Assembly (NCBI RefSeq): GCF_002188635.1
Contig: NZ_NINX01000051.1
Span: 124,001 to 188,000, forward strand
Source: Pigmentiphaga sp. NML030171
GTDB taxonomy: Bacteria; Pseudomonadota; Gammaproteobacteria; Burkholderiales; Burkholderiaceae_B
Direction: 5' to 3'
Length of the DNA stretch: 64,000 nucleotides
The notes under the pieces are model-generated. The model saw only the letters and a program-made list of their open reading frames with translations. It had not been told where the DNA came from and made no database searches. Numbering within the stretch: position 1 is the stretch's first letter; each line of letters starts with the position of its first letter. Made by a program: the position numbers and the translations under genes. Of the stretch, positions 35,688-46,904 are shown in pieces.

Positions 35688-37073
35688 TCAAGAAACCGGC
35701 ACGTCCTGCATGTCCGCCTCGCGGGCGTCGTCTGCGGCGTAATCCTCCAGCCGGTTGTAGAGCGTCTTCAGGCTGATGCCCAACACTTCGGCCGCGTGCT
35801 TCTTGACTCCCCCGCAGTGCTGCAGGGTGGCGAAGATCAGCCGCCGGTCCGCCTCAGCAAGCGATGTACCCACGGGTATGGTGACGATGGGCTCGCTTTC
35901 CGTCTTGCCGGCAGGCGCCAGTTGAATGGGCGCCGCCACCGTGTCGATCAGGCCGCCATCGGTCATGATGAAGGCACGATGCACGTAGTTCTTCAGTTCG
36001 CGCACGTTGCCGGGCCAGGCATGCGAGGCCATGTCGGCCAGCATGGCGGGCGAGAAGGCCTTGGCCGACTTGTGCGTCTCGTTGAGCATGTCGAGGAAAC
36101 TCTGGGCCAGGAGTTCGACGTCCTTGGCCCGCTCGCGCAAGGGCGGAAGATGGATGGGAAAGACGTTCAGGCGGTGATAGAGATCTTCCCGCAGCTTGCC
36201 GTCGGCCACCGCTTCCTGCGGGTTGCGGTTGGTGGCGGCAATGATGCGCACGTCGCATTCGGTTTCCTGGTTGGTACCGACGCGCATGAACAATCCGGTC
36301 TCGAGCACGCGCAGCAGCTTGACCTGGAGCTCGATGGGCATCTCCGTGATCTCGTCCAGGAACAGCGTGCCGCCGTGCGAACGTTCGAAATAGCCCTTGT
36401 GCTGGCGCTCGGCGCCGGTGAAGCTGCCGCGCTCGTGGCCGAACATCTCGCTCTCGATCAGGTTGGGCGAAATCGCGCCGCAGTTCACCGCCAGGAACGG
36501 GCGCTTGCGCCTCAGGCTCAGGTCGTGCAGCGTCTGGGCCGCCAGCTCCTTGCCCGTGCCGCTTTCGCCGATCAGCAGCACGGTCGCCTCGGTGGGCGCG
36601 ACCTTGCCGATCTGGTCGTACAGGTCCTGCATGGCGGGAGAACCGCCCAGCATGCGGCCGAAGCGGCCGAAGCGGCGCAGCTCGCCGCGCAGCGAACCGA
36701 TCTCGGCCTTCAGGTCGCCCGCCCGCGGAATGCGGTCCAGGATGGCCTTGAGGCGCTGCATGTTGATCGGCTTGATGAGATAGTCGGCCGCGCCCAGGCG
36801 AAGGGCGTCGACCGCGCTCTCCACGCTGGCGTGGCCGGTGATCAGGATGACCTCCACGGGGATGGACGGGTCCAGCTCCTTGAACAGGTCCATCCCGCTG
36901 CCGTCCGGCAGCTTCAGGTCGGTCAGCACGACGTCGGGACTCTGGCGCACGATCTGAATGCGGGCCTCCCGGAGGTCGCCCGCAACGGCGTTGGTGAACC
37001 CCTCGGCGCTGACGATTTCCGCCAGGGCTGCCCGGGTATTCGGTTCGTCGTCCACGATCAGGACATGCGGCAT
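35688..37073 (-). CDS. NtrC-family sigma-54 response regulator
   Basis: 461 residues: receiver domain 1-115 with phospho-acceptor Asp52 (VVLTDLKLPDG) and Lys101, AAA+ domain 140-380 with Walker A GESGTGKE (169-176), the sigma-54 contact loop GSFTGA (216-221; Ser replaces Ala of GAFTGA), Walker B GTLFLDEITEM and sensor II WPGNVRELKN, and a Fis-type HTH at the C-terminus (KKHAAEVLGISLKTLYNRL). No sensor kinase gene is adjacent, so it is an orphan here. The target genes may include the small stress-type genes around it. Confidence 0.94.
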   Translation of the reverse strand: MPHVLIVDDEPNTRAALAEIVSAEGFTNAVAGDLREARIQIVRQSPDVVLTDLKLPDGSGMDLFKELDPSIPVEVILITGHASVESAVDALRLGAADYLIKPINMQRLKAILDRIPRAGDLKAEIGSLRGELRRFGRFGRMLGGSPAMQDLYDQIGKVAPTEATVLLIGESGTGKELAAQTLHDLSLRRKRPFLAVNCGAISPNLIESEMFGHERGSFTGAERQHKGYFERSHGGTLFLDEITEMPIELQVKLLRVLETGLFMRVGTNQETECDVRIIAATNRNPQEAVADGKLREDLYHRLNVFPIHLPPLRERAKDVELLAQSFLDMLNETHKSAKAFSPAMLADMASHAWPGNVRELKNYVHRAFIMTDGGLIDTVAAPIQLAPAGKTESEPIVTIPVGTSLAEADRRLIFATLQHCGGVKKHAAEVLGISLKTLYNRLEDYAADDAREADMQDVPVS

Positions 37074-37642: not shown

Positions 37643-37856
37643 TGCTTACTCCTTGTATAGACTGCCCCAGGGGCCGCGGGGACGGATCCGGCGCGGTGTT
37701 CGGCCCCATGCCGCCGCAGTTTCCGTTCCGCCCCGCGCTCCCCTGGCCCAAGTGCAAGCAATAGGTAAGAATTACATGAAAACTTGTAAATTCCCCCGAC
37801 CCGCGCGGGGCTTGCGACAGCCCGTTACCATACCCCCCGCGACCGCCTTCCTGGAC

Positions 37857-37872: not shown

Positions 37873-37930
37873 AGAATGGGACTCCCGCCCTGCCGTGGGC
37901 ACTCCCGCCCCGGCCCCACCCTGGAGACTC

Positions 37931-39007
37931 ATGCGGAAGGAACAGGCGATGCGCCCTGACGAAGCCTTGGCACCGATCCTGGACACCGATACGCCCTACG
38001 AGGCGTCCGGCCCCGCCGCCCCGATCGCGGCCGAACCCGTGCGCCCGGCTCCGCCGCCCCAGCACTACGGGCTGCTGTACGGCGCCTCGATACCCATGCG
38101 GGAGCTGTACCAGCAGATCGACAAAGTGGCGCCCACCGCGCTGACGGTGCTTATCGTGGGCGAAAGCGGCACGGGCAAGGAATTGGTCGCGCGCACCCTG
38201 CACGAGAAGAGCCCGCGCGATACCGGCCCCTTCATCCCGGTCAACTGCGGTGCCATCCCCTCGACGCTGATCGAGGGAGAACTGTTCGGACACGAGAAAG
38301 GCAGCTTCACCGGCGCCATCCAGCAGCACGTGGGATATTTCGAACGTGCGGCCGGCGGCACCATCTTCCTGGACGAGATCACGGAAATGGCCCCGGAGAT
38401 GCAGATCAAGCTGCTGCGCGTGCTGGAGACCTCGGCCTTCCACCGTGTCGGCGGAACGGAACAGATTTCCGCGGACGTCCGGGTCATCGCCGCGACCAAC
38501 CGCGATCCCCAGGTGGCGGTGCGGGAAGGACGCTTCCGCGAAGACCTGCTCTATCGGCTGGCGGTGTTCCCGCTGCGGGTCCCGCCGCTGCGCGAGCGTC
38601 CCGCCGACATCGAACTGCTGGCCCAGCGCTTCCTCGACCAGCTCAACGCAACCGAGAAGACCCGCAAGCGTTTCGCCCGCGGCACCCTGGACGGCCTGCG
38701 CCAGTACCACTGGCCGGGCAACGTCCGGGAACTGAAGAACGCCGTGCACCGGGCGTTCATTCTGGCCGACGACGAGGTCGAGGTGCAGAATCCCGAACCC
38801 GCTCCGCGCAATCGCCGGGTGGTCCGGCGCGAGGGCAGCCTGGAACTGGCGGTGGGGATACCGCTGCCCGACGCGCAGCGGGAGCTGATCCTCGCGACGC
38901 TGGCCCACTTCGGCGGCGACAAGCGCCAGGCTGCCAGCACGCTGGGCATCAGCCTCAAGACGCTCTACAACCGGCTGGACACCTACAAGCACGGCGGCGA
39001 CGCCTAG
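37931..39007 (+). CDS. Sigma-54-dependent activator without receiver domain
   Basis: 358 residues: a short Pro/Ala-rich N-terminus of about 45 residues in place of a receiver, AAA+ domain with Walker A GESGTGKE (77-84), GSFTGA loop (124-129), GTIFLDEITEM and WPGNVRELKN, and a C-terminal Fis-type HTH (KRQAASTLGISLKTLYNRLD). Lacking a sensory domain it may be constitutively active or controlled by a partner protein, as with HrpR/PspF-type activators. It is similar to the response regulator at 35688-37073, so the two probably arose by duplication. Start ATG 37931 or 37949. Confidence 0.93.
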   Translation: MRKEQAMRPDEALAPILDTDTPYEASGPAAPIAAEPVRPAPPPQHYGLLYGASIPMRELYQQIDKVAPTALTVLIVGESGTGKELVARTLHEKSPRDTGPFIPVNCGAIPSTLIEGELFGHEKGSFTGAIQQHVGYFERAAGGTIFLDEITEMAPEMQIKLLRVLETSAFHRVGGTEQISADVRVIAATNRDPQVAVREGRFREDLLYRLAVFPLRVPPLRERPADIELLAQRFLDQLNATEKTRKRFARGTLDGLRQYHWPGNVRELKNAVHRAFILADDEVEVQNPEPAPRNRRVVRREGSLELAVGIPLPDAQRELILATLAHFGGDKRQAASTLGISLKTLYNRLDTYKHGGDA

Positions 39008-39015
39008 AACCGCCG

Positions 39016-40407
39016 CTACAGCCACCGCTCCAGCAGGCGCGACATGAATTCCTTGAGCCTGTCCGTCAGCGGCCGCCGCTTCCACTGCTCCAGTGACACC
39101 GGTTCGGACGCCTGCCTGTCGCGCTCGAACAGGGCTTCCATCTGGGCGCCGAAATCGGCGCCCAGGATCACCGCGTTGATCTCGTGGTTCAAGGTGAAGC
39201 TGCGCCAATCGAGATTGCTGGATCCGGCCGTGGACCAGACGCCGTCCACCACGGCGGTCTTGGCGTGCAGCAGCGCATCCTTGCGCTCGTAGATCTTCAC
39301 GCCGGCCTCGAGCAGTTCTTCGTAGTGGGATCTGCCGGCATGCAGCACGATCGAGAAATCGCTGAATCCCGGCAGCAGCAGCGTCACGTCGACACCACGG
39401 CGCGCGGCATCGGCCAGGGCCTCGATGAAGCCCGGATCGGGCACGAAATAGGCCATGGTGATGTGCACGGACCGTTGCGAGCTGTTGATGGCGGACAGCA
39501 GCGTCAGGTAGATGGCGTGGTTGTCCGCCGAACCCGGGCGGTTGACCAGGATACGGACCACGTGCGGCCCGCGCCGGGGCTGCTGCGGCAGAAAATCGAG
39601 ATCGCCCAGCGGCGGCCCGCCCTGGCTGCGCCACCCCTCCAGGAACACCCGCTCCACGTCGGGCACGGCGGGACCGCGGATGCTGATGTGCGTGTCCCGC
39701 CAGGGCGCGTCCTGCTGGCTGCCGGCGTCGTGGGCCCGGGCCGAACCGGCCACCGGCCGGGACGCGTACACGTCGCTCAGGTTGATGCCGCCCACGAAGG
39801 CGATCTCGCCATCAACCACCAGGATCTTGCGATGGCTGCGCTCGTTGATGGACCATCCGCCCCGGCTCTTGAGCGGGTTGACGGGATTGAAGAAGACCAC
39901 CTGGACGCCGGCCTGCCGCATGCGGTCGAAAAGATCGGGCGGCACGGACAAGGTGCCGATGTCATCGACCATGACGGCCACGGCGACCCCCTGCGCACGC
40001 TTGGCGATGAGCATCTCGGCGATGCGGTTGCCGATCTGGTCGTCCTCGAAGATGTAGCTTTCCAGGTGTATGAAGCGGCGAGCGGCGCCTATGGCCTCTT
40101 CCATGGCGCGGTAGGTGCTGGGCCCGTCGCCGAAGAGCCGCACTTCGTTGCCGACGACCAGCGGCGCATCGGCCACGGCTTCCTCGACCTGCAGGTGCCG
40201 CGCCAGGAAATCACCCGCCTGGGCCCGCGCGTCCAGTTGCTGGATGATGCGGCGGCTCTCGCGGTAGGTCAGCAGCCCCGCGTCGCTGGAGATGCGTACC
40301 TTGCGGCGCGGCTCCACGCCGCTGGCCGGATCGGGAAGCGGACTGGCGCAGTGGCACAACAGCGCCGCGCACAGGCCGTACAGGAGGACGCGCAGGAAGC
40401 TTCGCAT
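39016..40407 (-). CDS. Phospholipase D family protein (cardiolipin synthase-like)
   Basis: 463 residues with two HKD motifs: His192/Lys194/Asp199 (SHRKILVVDG) and His381/Lys383/Asp388 (LHAKTAVVDG), each followed by the GG/GS-N block (GGINLSDVY, GSSNLDWRS). This is the layout of cardiolipin synthases ClsB/ClsC. The N-terminus RVLLYGLCAALLCHC is a hydrophobic signal ending in Cys20, possibly a lipoprotein site but not a canonical lipobox. It lacks the two N-terminal membrane helices of ClsA. Divergent from rpoN. Confidence 0.88.
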   Translation of the reverse strand: MRSFLRVLLYGLCAALLCHCASPLPDPASGVEPRRKVRISSDAGLLTYRESRRIIQQLDARAQAGDFLARHLQVEEAVADAPLVVGNEVRLFGDGPSTYRAMEEAIGAARRFIHLESYIFEDDQIGNRIAEMLIAKRAQGVAVAVMVDDIGTLSVPPDLFDRMRQAGVQVVFFNPVNPLKSRGGWSINERSHRKILVVDGEIAFVGGINLSDVYASRPVAGSARAHDAGSQQDAPWRDTHISIRGPAVPDVERVFLEGWRSQGGPPLGDLDFLPQQPRRGPHVVRILVNRPGSADNHAIYLTLLSAINSSQRSVHITMAYFVPDPGFIEALADAARRGVDVTLLLPGFSDFSIVLHAGRSHYEELLEAGVKIYERKDALLHAKTAVVDGVWSTAGSSNLDWRSFTLNHEINAVILGADFGAQMEALFERDRQASEPVSLEQWKRRPLTDRLKEFMSRLLERWL

Positions 40408-40475
40408 GTTCTTCTCATTCTGTTACGAGACAGACCCGTTTCGTCGAGCATGGACCCTGGCCGCCGGCGACCGCA

Positions 40476-40492
40476 CCGGTAAAACTTACCGG
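40476..40492. promoter_or_regulatory. Palindrome CCGGTAA-N3-TTACCGG between divergent genes
   Basis: Perfect seven-base arms around AAC, midway between the phospholipase D gene (start 40407) and rpoN (start 40625), 60 bases upstream of the sigma-54 promoter. Position and symmetry suit an activator or repressor site, possibly for one of the neighbouring Fis-type activators. Inference only. Confidence 0.45.
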
Positions 40493-40552
40493 ACCGGCAA
40501 GAGCTGCACGCTATTTTCCACCGTCCGGCGCGCCGTGCCTACGTCTTCGCAT

Positions 40553-40568
40553 TGGCACGAAGCTTGCA
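40553..40568 (+). promoter_or_regulatory. Consensus sigma-54 promoter of rpoN
   Basis: TGGCACG-AAGC-TTGCA is a full match to TGGCACG-N4-TTGCW with GG and GC ten bases apart. It lies 56 bases before the rpoN start codon, so this sigma factor gene is probably transcribed by sigma-54 polymerase. Confidence 0.8.
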
Positions 40569-40624
40569 AGTAGGGGGATTGCGACATCAACGGCCGACCC
40601 TCCGGCCAAGCATGGGAGACAGCA

Positions 40625-42067
40625 TTGGTTCAAGCTACTTACGACATGCGTGTGCGGCAGCAACTGTCCTTGACGCCCAGGCTCCAGCAGTCCGTCAAGT
40701 TGTTGCAGATGTCCGCGCTCGAGTTCACACAGGAGCTGCAGCAAGCCATCGCGAACAATCCCTTCCTGGAGGAAGACGACCAGGAAGCCTCTTCGGGGGC
40801 GCAAGCCGGCGATTCGATCCTTTCCGTGGACCGCAACACCACCGGCTCCGCCGAGGCCGACGATGCCCAGGAACCCCCACCGCCCACGTTCGACCCGGAA
40901 CCCTATGGCGGCAGCTACGCCGGCACCCGGACGCGCGACGACGATGGCGAGAATCGTCCCGACATCGGGCAGTGGACGCACAGTTCCATGGGGCTGCACG
41001 ACCACCTGCACCAGCAGTTGTGCGGCTACCGGCTCGGGGACCGCGACCGGCTGCTGGCCGAGATCATCATCGAGGCGCTGGACGAGGACGGCTATCTGCG
41101 CCAGGACTTCGACGATCTGGCGGCCACGCTCGCCGTACAACCCGCCCCCACGCACGACGAATGGATGGTCGCCCTGACCCTGGTCCAGCACCTGGACGCT
41201 CCGGGGCTTGCCGCGCGCAACCTGGGAGAATGCCTGCGCCTGCAGCTGGCAGCGCTGGCCGAGACGACGCCGGGGCGCGCGCTGGCGATGGCGATCGCCG
41301 ACCGCTACCTGGACCTGATGGCGCGCCGCGAGACGGCCGAACTGCGCCGCCGGCTGGGATGCAACGACGAAGACCTGGCGGTGGCCTGCCGCCTTATTCG
41401 CAGCCTGACGCCCCGGCCGGGCCTGGCGTTCTCGGAAGAAGGCACCGACCATATCGTGCCGGACGTGATCGTGCGCAAGGTCCGGAACAAATGGGTGATC
41501 TCCACCAATCCCGCGGTCATGCCCAAGGCTCGCCTGCACCACGCCTATGCCAACCTGTTCCGCAAGGCGCGCTGCGACGACCGCGCCCCGCTCGCGCAGG
41601 AACTGCAGGAAGCACGCTGGCTGATACGCAACGTCGAACAGCGCTTCACCACCATCCAGCGCGTGGCCGAGGCCATCGTCGCGCACCAGCGCACCTTCTT
41701 CGATTATGGCGAGATCGCGCTCAAGCCGCTGGTGCTGCGCAAGGTGGCCGAAGAACTGGACCTGCATGAATCCACGGTGTCGCGGGCGACGAACAACAAG
41801 TACATGGCCACGCCGCGCGGCGTGTTCGAGTTCAAGCATTTCTTCTCGCGCGAACTGGCCACCGAAACCGGCGGCCGATGTTCGGCCGCCGCCGTGCGGG
41901 CGCTGATCCGCGACATGATCGCCGCCGAGGATCGCCGCGACCCCCTGTCCGACGTCTCGTTGACCAGGATGCTGGCCGAACAGGGCGTGGTGGTGGCACG
42001 GCGCACCGTCACCAAGTACCGCGACCTGATGAAGCTGCCGCCCGCGGAATTGCGCAAACAGCCGTGA
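40625..42067 (+). CDS. rpoN: RNA polymerase sigma-54 factor RpoN (paralogue in stress-gene context)
   Basis: 480 residues. Region I RQQLSLTPRLQQSVKLLQMS and LQQAIANNPFLEE, an acidic region II (about residues 45-110), the core-binding domain, an HTH region (LDLHESTVSRATNNKYMATP) and the RpoN box ARRTVTKYRD (458-467) give a complete sigma-54. Start is TTG 40625 with GGGAG 6 bases upstream; no ATG fits the conserved N-terminus. The usual rpoN neighbours (lptB, hpf, ptsN) are absent. It carries its own -24/-12 promoter. Confidence 0.95.
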   Translation: MVQATYDMRVRQQLSLTPRLQQSVKLLQMSALEFTQELQQAIANNPFLEEDDQEASSGAQAGDSILSVDRNTTGSAEADDAQEPPPPTFDPEPYGGSYAGTRTRDDDGENRPDIGQWTHSSMGLHDHLHQQLCGYRLGDRDRLLAEIIIEALDEDGYLRQDFDDLAATLAVQPAPTHDEWMVALTLVQHLDAPGLAARNLGECLRLQLAALAETTPGRALAMAIADRYLDLMARRETAELRRRLGCNDEDLAVACRLIRSLTPRPGLAFSEEGTDHIVPDVIVRKVRNKWVISTNPAVMPKARLHHAYANLFRKARCDDRAPLAQELQEARWLIRNVEQRFTTIQRVAEAIVAHQRTFFDYGEIALKPLVLRKVAEELDLHESTVSRATNNKYMATPRGVFEFKHFFSRELATETGGRCSAAAVRALIRDMIAAEDRRDPLSDVSLTRMLAEQGVVVARRTVTKYRDLMKLPPAELRKQP

Positions 42068-44322: not shown

Positions 44323-45594
44323 TTATCGCGCCAGCCGCAGGCCGGCGTACTGCCAGCGCGAGCCAGGCGCAAAGAAATTGCGGTACGTGACACGGATGTG
44401 ACTGCGAGGCGTGGCGCAGGACCCGCCCCGCAGCACCATCTGGTTGATCATGAACTTGCCGTTGTATTCCCCCACCGCGCCGGCGGCGGGACGAAAACCC
44501 GGATACGGCAGGTAGGCGCTTTGCGTCCACTCCCAGACACCGCCCAGGAAACCGGGCGCATCGGCGCGCAGCCGCGCTGGATGCAGCAGCCCCGACTCGG
44601 CGAAGTCCCCATCGGCCGGCAGGCCGGCGCCTTCGGCCATGGCCCGCGCGGCCGCGATTTCCCATTCCTGTTCCGTCGGCAGCCGGGCGCCCGCCCACCG
44701 GGCATAGGCATCGGCCTCGTAATAGCTCAAGTGGCAGACGGGCTCGGCCGGGTCCATGGGGAGCGGCCCGGCCACCGTATGGCACATCCATCGGCCGTCG
44801 CGCCGCATCCAGTACAGCGGCATGTCCCATCCACCGCGCACGCGCGCATCCCAGCCGTCGGACAACCACAAGTCCGGCCGGCGATAGCCGTCGTCCTCGA
44901 TGAAGGCCAGGTATTCCGCATTCGAGACCGGGCGCTGCGCCAGTTCGAACGCATCGACCCACACGCGGTGCCGCGGCGCCTCGTTGTCGAAGGCAAAGCC
45001 TTCGCCCGCATGCCCCACGTCCGCCAGTCCCTCGTCATAGCGCAGGAATGCCGCCGGCCCGGGTTCCGACGGCGGTTCCTTGGCCCGGGCCGGCCGCCAC
45101 GCGGGCAGCAGAGGGTTGTGCCAGAAGTGGTGCTTCAGGTCGGTCGCGATCAGTTCCTGGTGCTGCTGTTCGTGATGCAGGCCGAGCTCGACCAGCGCCA
45201 GCGCCCGCGGCGGCGCGTCATCGTCCATCCAGGCCAGCAGGCGTTCCAGCACCGACTGCTGGTAGGCCATGACCCGGTCCAGCGACGGACGCGAGAGCAG
45301 CCCCCGCTGGCCGCGCGGATGCCGCTCGCCGACGCCCACGTAGTAGGAGTTGAACAGCTCGCGGAAGGCGGGATCGAAGGGCCTGAAGCCCGGCTGCCAC
45401 GGTTCGAGCACGAAGGTCTCGAAGAACCACGCGACGTGGCCGACGTGCCACTTGACCGGACTGGCCTCGGGCATGGACTGCAGCATGCAGTCCTCGGGCG
45501 TCAACCCGTCCAGGAGGGCCAGCGTCGCCTCGCGCACGGCCGCCACGCGGCGGGCCAGCAACTCGGGAACGAACACATCGTCGCGCGCGTTCAT
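44323..45594 (-). CDS. egtB: Ergothioneine biosynthesis sulfoxide synthase EgtB
   Basis: 423-residue non-haem iron enzyme joining hercynine to a thiol donor. DinB-like N-domain with iron ligands: KWHVGHVAWFFE and the HX3HXE motif HEQQHQE. The C-terminal formylglycine-generating-enzyme-like domain includes RLPTEQEWEIAAARAM, LGGVWEWTQSAYLPYPGF and MVLRGGSCATPRSHIRVTYR. The start overlaps the egtD stop (ATGA). egtC and egtE are absent, so the thiol donor may be cysteine or glutathione-derived; this cannot be read from sequence. Confidence 0.94.
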   Translation of the reverse strand: MNARDDVFVPELLARRVAAVREATLALLDGLTPEDCMLQSMPEASPVKWHVGHVAWFFETFVLEPWQPGFRPFDPAFRELFNSYYVGVGERHPRGQRGLLSRPSLDRVMAYQQSVLERLLAWMDDDAPPRALALVELGLHHEQQHQELIATDLKHHFWHNPLLPAWRPARAKEPPSEPGPAAFLRYDEGLADVGHAGEGFAFDNEAPRHRVWVDAFELAQRPVSNAEYLAFIEDDGYRRPDLWLSDGWDARVRGGWDMPLYWMRRDGRWMCHTVAGPLPMDPAEPVCHLSYYEADAYARWAGARLPTEQEWEIAAARAMAEGAGLPADGDFAESGLLHPARLRADAPGFLGGVWEWTQSAYLPYPGFRPAAGAVGEYNGKFMINQMVLRGGSCATPRSHIRVTYRNFFAPGSRWQYAGLRLAR

Positions 45595-46610
45595 CGCTGG
45601 GCCAGGAAAACGCCGAACCACGAACGGGGATCGGTCCACATGTTGCGCACCGAAAAACCCGCCTGCGCCAGCATGGCATCGAACTGCGCCGGCGTGTACT
45701 TGTAGGAATGCTCGGTCACGATGTCCTCGCCTGCCTCGAATATCCGCTCCGACGTCCCCCAGCATACGCGCTGCCGCTGCCGGGCCCGCAGCCGCATCTC
45801 GATACGGCCGTGGCCATCGTCGAAGCGCGACTCATGGTCGAACTCGGCCGGCTGGAAGTCGCTGCCCAGCACCCGGTTGCATACGCGCAGCACGTTGCGG
45901 TTGAATGCCGCCGTCACGCCCAGGTCGTCGGCATAGGCGCGCTCCATCACGCGCCTGTCCTTGCGCAGGTCGGCGCTGATCAACAGACTGCCGCGCGGAC
46001 CGGCCTGGCGGCAGATCGCGGCCATCAGCGCGACGGCTCGCTCCGGATCGAAGTTGCCGATGGACGATCCGGGGTAGAAAAACACCGGCGGATGCTCCTC
46101 GATATCGACCAGGTGGCGGCGCAGGTCCAGGTCGCCCGAGAAGTCCGCCTCCACGGCCACGCAGGCGATCTGGGGGAATTTGCGCCCCAGCGCCGCCACC
46201 TCGTGCCGCAGGCAGTCGGCGGCGATGTCCACGCCCAGATATCGGCAGGCGTCCACGTGGGCCAGCCAGGAACGGGACTTCGCGCAATCTCCGCAGCCCA
46301 GGTCCACCCACTGGATGCGGCGCGGCAGGGACCGGGCGATGGCCGGACGATGGGCCTCGAAGATGGCCCGCTCGGTGCGGGTCGGGTAGTACTCCTCGAG
46401 TTCGCAGATGGCGTTGAACAGGACGCACCCTTGCGCGTCGTAAAGAAACTTCGGATCGATATGGGCCTGCGCATCCCGCAGGCCGGCGGCCAGTTCCGCC
46501 GCGCGATTGTCGAGCGGCGCCGTATCGGCGCGCCGCCCGGGGGACGGCGCGCCTTCCATCGAAAAGGCGGTGTCGTTCCCGGCCATTCTGTGCGCGGGAC
46601 CTCGAAGCAT
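45591..46610 (-). CDS. egtD: L-histidine N(alpha)-methyltransferase EgtD
   Basis: SAM-dependent trimethylation of histidine to hercynine, first step of ergothioneine synthesis. 339 residues from ATG 46610. IDPKFLYDAQGCVLFNAICE, ELEEYYPTRTERAIFEAH, VDLGCGDCAKSRSWLA (SAM site), FFYPGSSIGNFDPE, AADLRKD-like ISADLRKDRRVM and FDHESRFDDGHGRIEMRL are EgtD signatures. AAGGAG stands 15 bases before ATG 46610 but 6 before an in-frame TTG at 46619, so translation may begin at TTG. Co-transcribed with egtB. Confidence 0.94.
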   Translation of the reverse strand: MLRGPAHRMAGNDTAFSMEGAPSPGRRADTAPLDNRAAELAAGLRDAQAHIDPKFLYDAQGCVLFNAICELEEYYPTRTERAIFEAHRPAIARSLPRRIQWVDLGCGDCAKSRSWLAHVDACRYLGVDIAADCLRHEVAALGRKFPQIACVAVEADFSGDLDLRRHLVDIEEHPPVFFYPGSSIGNFDPERAVALMAAICRQAGPRGSLLISADLRKDRRVMERAYADDLGVTAAFNRNVLRVCNRVLGSDFQPAEFDHESRFDDGHGRIEMRLRARQRQRVCWGTSERIFEAGEDIVTEHSYKYTPAQFDAMLAQAGFSVRNMWTDPRSWFGVFLAQR

Positions 46611-46904
46611 GGTGGTCAATATGGGCTCCTTGGGGGACAGCGGCAGAGTGTCCGCCCCGGGCCGTAGCAAGCGCAATGCCCGGCCGCGGCCGTCGGACAT
46701 GGGCCCTATCTATACGCTTGTCGCTTCCCGGGGAACAGGAATGGGATGTAACCCTTGCCTACGACGCTGCGAAAGGAGCCCGCATTTGACCGTAAACCGA
46801 AACAAACTATGGCGGCCACCCCTGTTTTTCCCTCATGGAACAGCCCCTAAGCTGATGGCTGTCGCGACGGTTTCCCTCCGTCCCCCCACCATCAAGGAGT
46901 TTCC
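46611..46904. other. Divergent intergenic region egtD / NAD-binding protein
   Basis: 294 bases with no gene that I can support. It should hold the egtD promoter (a leftward GTATAGAT near 46708-46715 is a possible -10) and a rightward promoter. It contains moderately AT-rich runs but no clear palindrome or terminator. Confidence 0.4.

Follow-up and report, generated by a model that had tools for sequence, protein, structure and literature searches.

Which form of RNA polymerase transcribes the rpoN gene of this Pigmentiphaga locus, and which activator opens its promoter? The window, i.e. the whole stretch of 64,000 nucleotides that was analysed (Pigmentiphaga sp. NML030171, contig NZ_NINX01000051.1, positions 124,001 to 188,000), contains an rpoN gene beside two genes for predicted sigma-54 activators. 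An earlier note on this DNA had proposed that the gene has a sigma-54 promoter of its own and takes part in a positive feedback loop gated by an adjacent activator, which might bind a palindrome upstream of the promoter. The note had also implied that the gene is the primary rpoN.

Identity of the window rpoN gene

40625..42067, plus strand: rpoN2, RNA polymerase sigma-54 factor, TTG start (PF00309, PF04963, PF04552; NCBIfam PRK12469)

All three sigma-54 domains are present in the predicted protein, which scored 658.6 bits against PRK12469, the RpoN2 subfamily model with a curated cut-off of 396. The source genome has two sigma-54 genes, as have 11 of the 11 genus genomes searched. Its other copy (rpoN1) encodes a product with 46% identity to that of the window gene and is located elsewhere in the genome, after lptA- and lptB-like genes (read by eye in translation); the primary rpoN usually lies in the lptA/lptB neighbourhood. 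A tree was computed from 27 RpoN2 sequences (the window's and those of 26 of the 80 named loci described below) and RpoN1 from 10 of the 11 genus genomes, and a single branch with a support of 100/100 separated the RpoN2 from the RpoN1 rows. The implied primary identity is ruled out by the position of the lptA-lptB-linked copy and by this split; judged from its sequence, the window gene is rpoN2, the second sigma-54 factor. The RpoN box is nearly identical in RpoN1 and RpoN2 (ARRTVAKYRE vs ARRTVTKYRD). The nearest named relatives of the locus are Pigmentiphaga.

Two overlapping ORFs lie on the minus strand of the window at 44323-46700, one with DinB_2 and FGE-sulfatase domains and the other with a histidine-specific methyltransferase domain, which we take to be domains of the kind seen in ergothioneine-type enzymes. 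Some Achromobacter, Bordetella and Schauerella loci also have related genes close to rpoN2.

The promoter element upstream of rpoN2

40553..40568, plus strand: sigma-54 −24/−12 promoter box predicted for rpoN2, TGGCACGAAGCTTGCA (exact consensus, conserved)

The box is a full match to the consensus TGGCACNNNNNTTGCW, with GG and GC 10 bases apart and flanks close to consensus, and the TTG at 40625 follows after 56 bases (40569-40624), as the earlier note had described. It was the single exact match in the 64-kb window, where 0.07 were expected, and at least one match arose in 7 of 100 shuffles; thus, the box as a bare motif is not significant. Across the genome we found 11 exact matches, and a one-mismatch pattern occurred 148 times vs 133 for the reversed-pattern control, which is near background. 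The case for an rpoN2 promoter rests on the position and conservation of the box.

Conservation was examined in three sets of loci. A strand-corrected alignment of the genus showed that GG, GC, their spacing and the TTGCA end were kept in all 11 genomes. The named loci, the best 80 of 516 confirmed candidates, came from Pigmentiphaga, Verticiella, Achromobacter, Bordetella, Caballeronia, Paraburkholderia, Ralstonia and others; in each of these 80, a box with at most two mismatches preceded the start of the rpoN2 match by 57-115 bases, compared to about 1.2 loci expected from the background of the same loci (0.0155 per locus). The third set consisted of 40 loci fetched by place, hand-chosen from the 106 RpoN2 carriers described below for wider genus coverage, and the box was present in 37 of them (19/20 and 18/20). 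Six of the named loci are genus genomes (L062-L067) and five of the carriers are named loci (L068, L071, L072, L102 and L116). With these overlaps removed, 120 distinct related loci remain, and 117 of them have the box at rpoN2.

The three carriers missing the box (G083, G084 and G094; loci L153, L169 and L172) all have one genus label, g8, as do three other carriers in which the box was retained (G086, G091 and G093). The rpoN2 start in the former lies 45, 45 and 53 bases, respectively, past the stop of the activator gene Ebp2. As the box is absent and the gap is this short, rpoN2 may be co-transcribed with Ebp2 in these carriers, i.e. joined to the activator transcript.

A simple scan of 40380-40660 found no sigma-70-like site. 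The best GG-N10-GC matches upstream of rpoN1 carry 2-4 mismatches in the 11 genus genomes. The conservation of the box, the result of the sigma-70 scan and reporter data from Ralstonia solanacearum (PMC4371752) support the proposal that the window rpoN has a sigma-54 promoter.

Candidate activators encoded beside rpoN2

35688..37073, minus strand: EbpRR, predicted response-regulator sigma-54 activator (PF00072, PF00158, HTH_8; GSFTGA)
37895..39007, plus strand: Ebp2, predicted sigma-54 activator without a receiver domain (PF00158, HTH_8; GSFTGA, Walker A)

EbpRR and Ebp2 have the features of sigma-54 enhancer-binding proteins (EBPs), namely an AAA+ domain with Walker A, a GAFTGA-type loop, which here reads GSFTGA, and a Fis-type HTH. 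Both score under the NifA cut-off. The two are 58% identical over 310 aa and have the recognition helix LGISLKTLYNRL of the HTH in common. As the helix is identical, a common DNA site is expected for both. Among the matches from other loci, LGISLKTLYNRL was present in 56 of 64 EbpRR-type and 16 of 35 Ebp2-type rows, and close variants were present in many others.

We also asked how often such activators accompany RpoN2 in the family. An RpoN2-type match of at least 52% identity was found in 106 of 229 family genomes, among the matches listed, a count that could miss RpoN2 fragments. An activator match at E < 1e-103 was found in 108 genomes; by hand count among the matches listed, these were 106 of the 106 RpoN2 carriers vs 2 of the 123 others, where the search covers EbpRR and Ebp2 jointly and cannot separate them. 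Of the two genomes with an activator match only, G121 is assembled in 340 contigs and G131 in 300, both at 92% completeness. For the other 121 genomes, activator matches were absent or had E values of 2.6e-89 or higher. Together with the shared helix and the palindrome-box pairing described below, this co-occurrence lends support to the suggestion that the adjacent activators may control rpoN2.

The palindrome upstream of the box

40476..40492, no strand: 17-bp palindrome CCGGTAAAACTTACCGG, proposed upstream activator site (core kept in the genus and paired with the box)
37765..37775, no strand: second GTAA-N3-TTAC core, preceding Ebp2 on one side and DUF1328-DUF883-EbpRR on the other

The palindrome CCGGTAAAACTTACCGG sits 60 bases before the box, with its centre about 70 bp before the GG of the −24 element. 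The window contains two copies of the palindrome core, GTAA-N3-TTAC (40479-40489 and 37765-37775), where 0.00 were expected. The whole genome contains seven core sites vs 15 for the reversed-pattern control, indicating that the core as such is not enriched. A core upstream of rpoN2 was kept in 10 of 11 Pigmentiphaga genomes, and the gap between core and box was 63-67 bases in 10 of 11. Most loci outside Pigmentiphaga lack the palindrome at rpoN2: a core was found upstream of rpoN2 in 7 of the 80 named loci (the best 80 of 516 candidates), six of which are Pigmentiphaga-type, and among the fetched carriers in 1 of 20 in the first set and 0 of 16 readable rows in the second. An alignment of 12 Caballeronia and Paraburkholderia loci showed another conserved element with TGTAAA at a similar place.

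The second core of the window lies in the spacer between the divergent EbpRR and Ebp2 genes. The divergent gene pair was in view in 23 named loci (among the best 80 of 516); 13 of these contained a core in the same spacer, including 8 of 8 Ralstonia-type loci. In the window, only a weak box with four mismatches follows this core; in G004 and G005 a one-mismatch box follows the core in the activator spacer. A third core of the source genome, C12:94796, is followed 87 bases on by a box with two mismatches, and a small membrane-protein gene begins 85 bases further. This site overturned a reading in which a sigma-54 box accompanies the palindrome at rpoN2 only. The four remaining core sites of the genome are inside ORFs or at a gene start (by eye).

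A further GTAA-N3-TTAC palindrome was seen about 4.3-5.4 kb after rpoN2 in six Ralstonia-type loci (L101, L115, L124, L127, L128 and L132).

Pairing of palindrome and box in Pigmentiphaga

The arrangement of core and box was searched for in the genus with a paired pattern in which a TGGYAY-N6-TGCW box follows the core after 60-90 bases. The pattern was derived from two sites of the source genome, so those two match by construction. We obtained 19 matches in 10 of the 11 Pigmentiphaga genomes and none with the reversed-pattern control; the pattern was not matched in the eleventh genome, G001. Ten of the 19 matches precede rpoN2 with a gap of 63-67 bases. Five (in G000, G003, G006, G008 and G009) precede a gene for a 64-residue membrane protein, with a gap of 87-89 bases:

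L189, 1224-1415, minus strand: small membrane-protein gene with the palindrome and box arrangement (also in L191, L194, L197 and L204)

The one copy of this protein that was scanned (L189) had no Pfam hit. Two matches run from the rpoN2 palindrome towards the divergent cls gene in G004 and G005, with a gap of 84 bases. The cls gene beside rpoN2 is 61-62% identical over a long match in G005; in G004 only short pieces match. The last two matches, from G004 and G005, fall between the activator genes, where, with a gap of 89-90 bases, they precede a DUF883 gene followed by EbpRR. The corresponding spacer of the window has the order DUF1328 gene, DUF883 gene, EbpRR. Box pairing at four kinds of gene, the second core between the activator genes and the shared recognition helix are consistent with the earlier view of the palindrome as a candidate activator site.

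Two further observations concern cls. The copy in G004 (L192 and L201) looks decayed. In the window, a weaker −24/−12-like element, TGGAAAATAGCGTGCA, faces the divergent cls gene on the minus strand (40505-40520); it has three mismatches and keeps GG and GC. Among the 11 genus genomes, seven carry this element unaltered and one, G010, has a disrupted GG.

Discussion

In the circuit that we propose, sigma-54 polymerase loaded with RpoN1 would wait at the box at 40553-40568 until EbpRR and/or Ebp2, bound at the GTAA-N3-TTAC palindrome, opens the rpoN2 promoter. The RpoN2 so made would contribute further sigma-54 activity, possibly at the rpoN2 promoter. Taken as a whole, i.e. rpoN2 on a −24/−12 promoter served first by RpoN1, EbpRR and/or Ebp2 acting at the palindrome, and possible feedback by RpoN2, this proposal is probably correct. 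Counting against it are the absence of the box in 3 of 40 carriers, the rarity of the palindrome at rpoN2 outside Pigmentiphaga, and the appearance of NtrC in a list of candidate activators for R. solanacearum (PMC4676750).

The locus resembles that of rpoN2 (RSp1671) in R. solanacearum, where a second rpoN has an upstream sigma-54 box (TGGCACAGCCTTTGCA, 63 bp upstream) and the EBPs Rsp1667 and Rsp1668, which contain GSFTGA, were proposed for it (PMC4371752, PMC4676750). According to Table 3 of the latter report, two EBPs are predicted to target rpoN2 and one EBP gene. The promoter and the guess at the activators are already in print for that organism. Judging from GSFTGA, from how the genes are numbered and from the way other Ralstonia loci are arranged, Rsp1667 and Rsp1668 are probably the counterparts of EbpRR and Ebp2. 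RSp1671 is likewise probably orthologous to the rpoN2 loci described here, as judged from other Ralstonia, R. solanacearum itself being outside the loci compared. Unlike R. solanacearum rpoN2, which is on a megaplasmid, the window rpoN2 adjoins a divergent cls gene and has a GTAA-N3-TTAC palindrome upstream; in the eight Ralstonia-type loci this motif is in the activator spacer and not at rpoN2.

Reporter studies in R. solanacearum found that rpoN2::lacZ was silent in complete medium and induced in minimal medium, and that the expression in minimal medium was lost completely when rpoN1 was mutated (PMC4371752). The step shown experimentally is RpoN1 to RpoN2. These data also suit a cascade in which RpoN1 drives rpoN2 and RpoN2 is inactive at its own promoter through another promoter or activator preference, and RpoN1 and RpoN2 of R. 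solanacearum were reported not to be interchangeable (PMC4676750). However, the loss of expression in the rpoN1 mutant is also compatible with feedback that needs RpoN1 to start, and the near-identical RpoN boxes and the full-consensus promoter argue against such a cascade. It is a serious contender, although we would not bet on it.

Feedback by RpoN2 at its own promoter is plausible because of the near-identical RpoN boxes and a fit with data from Mesorhizobium loti, in which a strain with rpoN2::lacZ but no active rpoN2 reached about 17% of the activity seen in the strain with an intact operon, a result consistent with feedback (PMC3538637). The prxS-rpoN2 genes of Rhizobium etli and M. loti resemble the window locus in that a second rpoN is under a sigma-54 promoter. 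They form an operon with prxS and are activated by NifA in nodules, whereas the window has a divergent cls upstream and activators under the NifA cut-off; these neighbours and scores rule out assignment to the rhizobial type. A cross-class survey from 2025 found that genes transcribed by sigma-54 are enriched for rpoN in several classes, beta-Proteobacteria among them, and inferred autoregulation (PMC12316311). This is a class-level prediction, and the passages concerned neither separate rpoN1 from rpoN2 in beta-Proteobacteria nor link dedicated activators to them.

A general activator such as NtrC could act in place of EbpRR and Ebp2, with the palindrome belonging to another regulator. NtrC is a listed candidate for R. 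solanacearum rpoN2 (PMC4676750), induction there occurs in minimal medium (PMC4371752), and few loci outside Pigmentiphaga have the palindrome at rpoN2. We nevertheless regard this alternative as unlikely, given the near-strict co-occurrence of RpoN2 with the Ebp pair, the presence of the same core in the EbpRR-Ebp2 spacer, and the pairing of the core with sigma-54 boxes, including those that precede DUF883 and EbpRR in G004 and G005. Finally, a chance box with rpoN2 on an unrecognised sigma-70 promoter, which the 7 of 100 shuffles with an exact match would allow, is highly improbable and was rejected because the position and sequence of the box are conserved, with 80 of 80 named loci (the best 80 of 516) vs about 1.2 expected, and the simple scan found no sigma-70-like site.

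Returning to control of rpoN2 by EbpRR and/or Ebp2, a broader but tentative reading is that rpoN2, EbpRR and Ebp2 might form a self-contained, jointly inherited switch. One shared site would then govern the rpoN2 promoter, the operon of the activators and a few membrane or envelope genes (cls and DUF883/DUF1328-type), with RpoN1 starting the switch and RpoN2 sustaining it. In the literature searched, with most subscription journals outside its range, we found no report of the wide conservation of the box, the co-occurrence of RpoN2 with the activators or the shared palindrome.

The locus represents a clearly marked case of a circuit type already known, part of which has been shown experimentally in one relative. 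The role of RpoN2 is unsettled in this group. A Burkholderia pseudomallei rpoN2 mutant is without catalase E activity (PMC4745423); the passages of the R. solanacearum report cited here tie no phenotype to the rpoN2 mutant and call the role enigmatic (PMC4371752). The co-occurrence with activators, the conserved promoter and the palindrome-box pairs point to the signal of the activators, to a hand-over from RpoN1 to RpoN2 and to a few candidate membrane or envelope targets.
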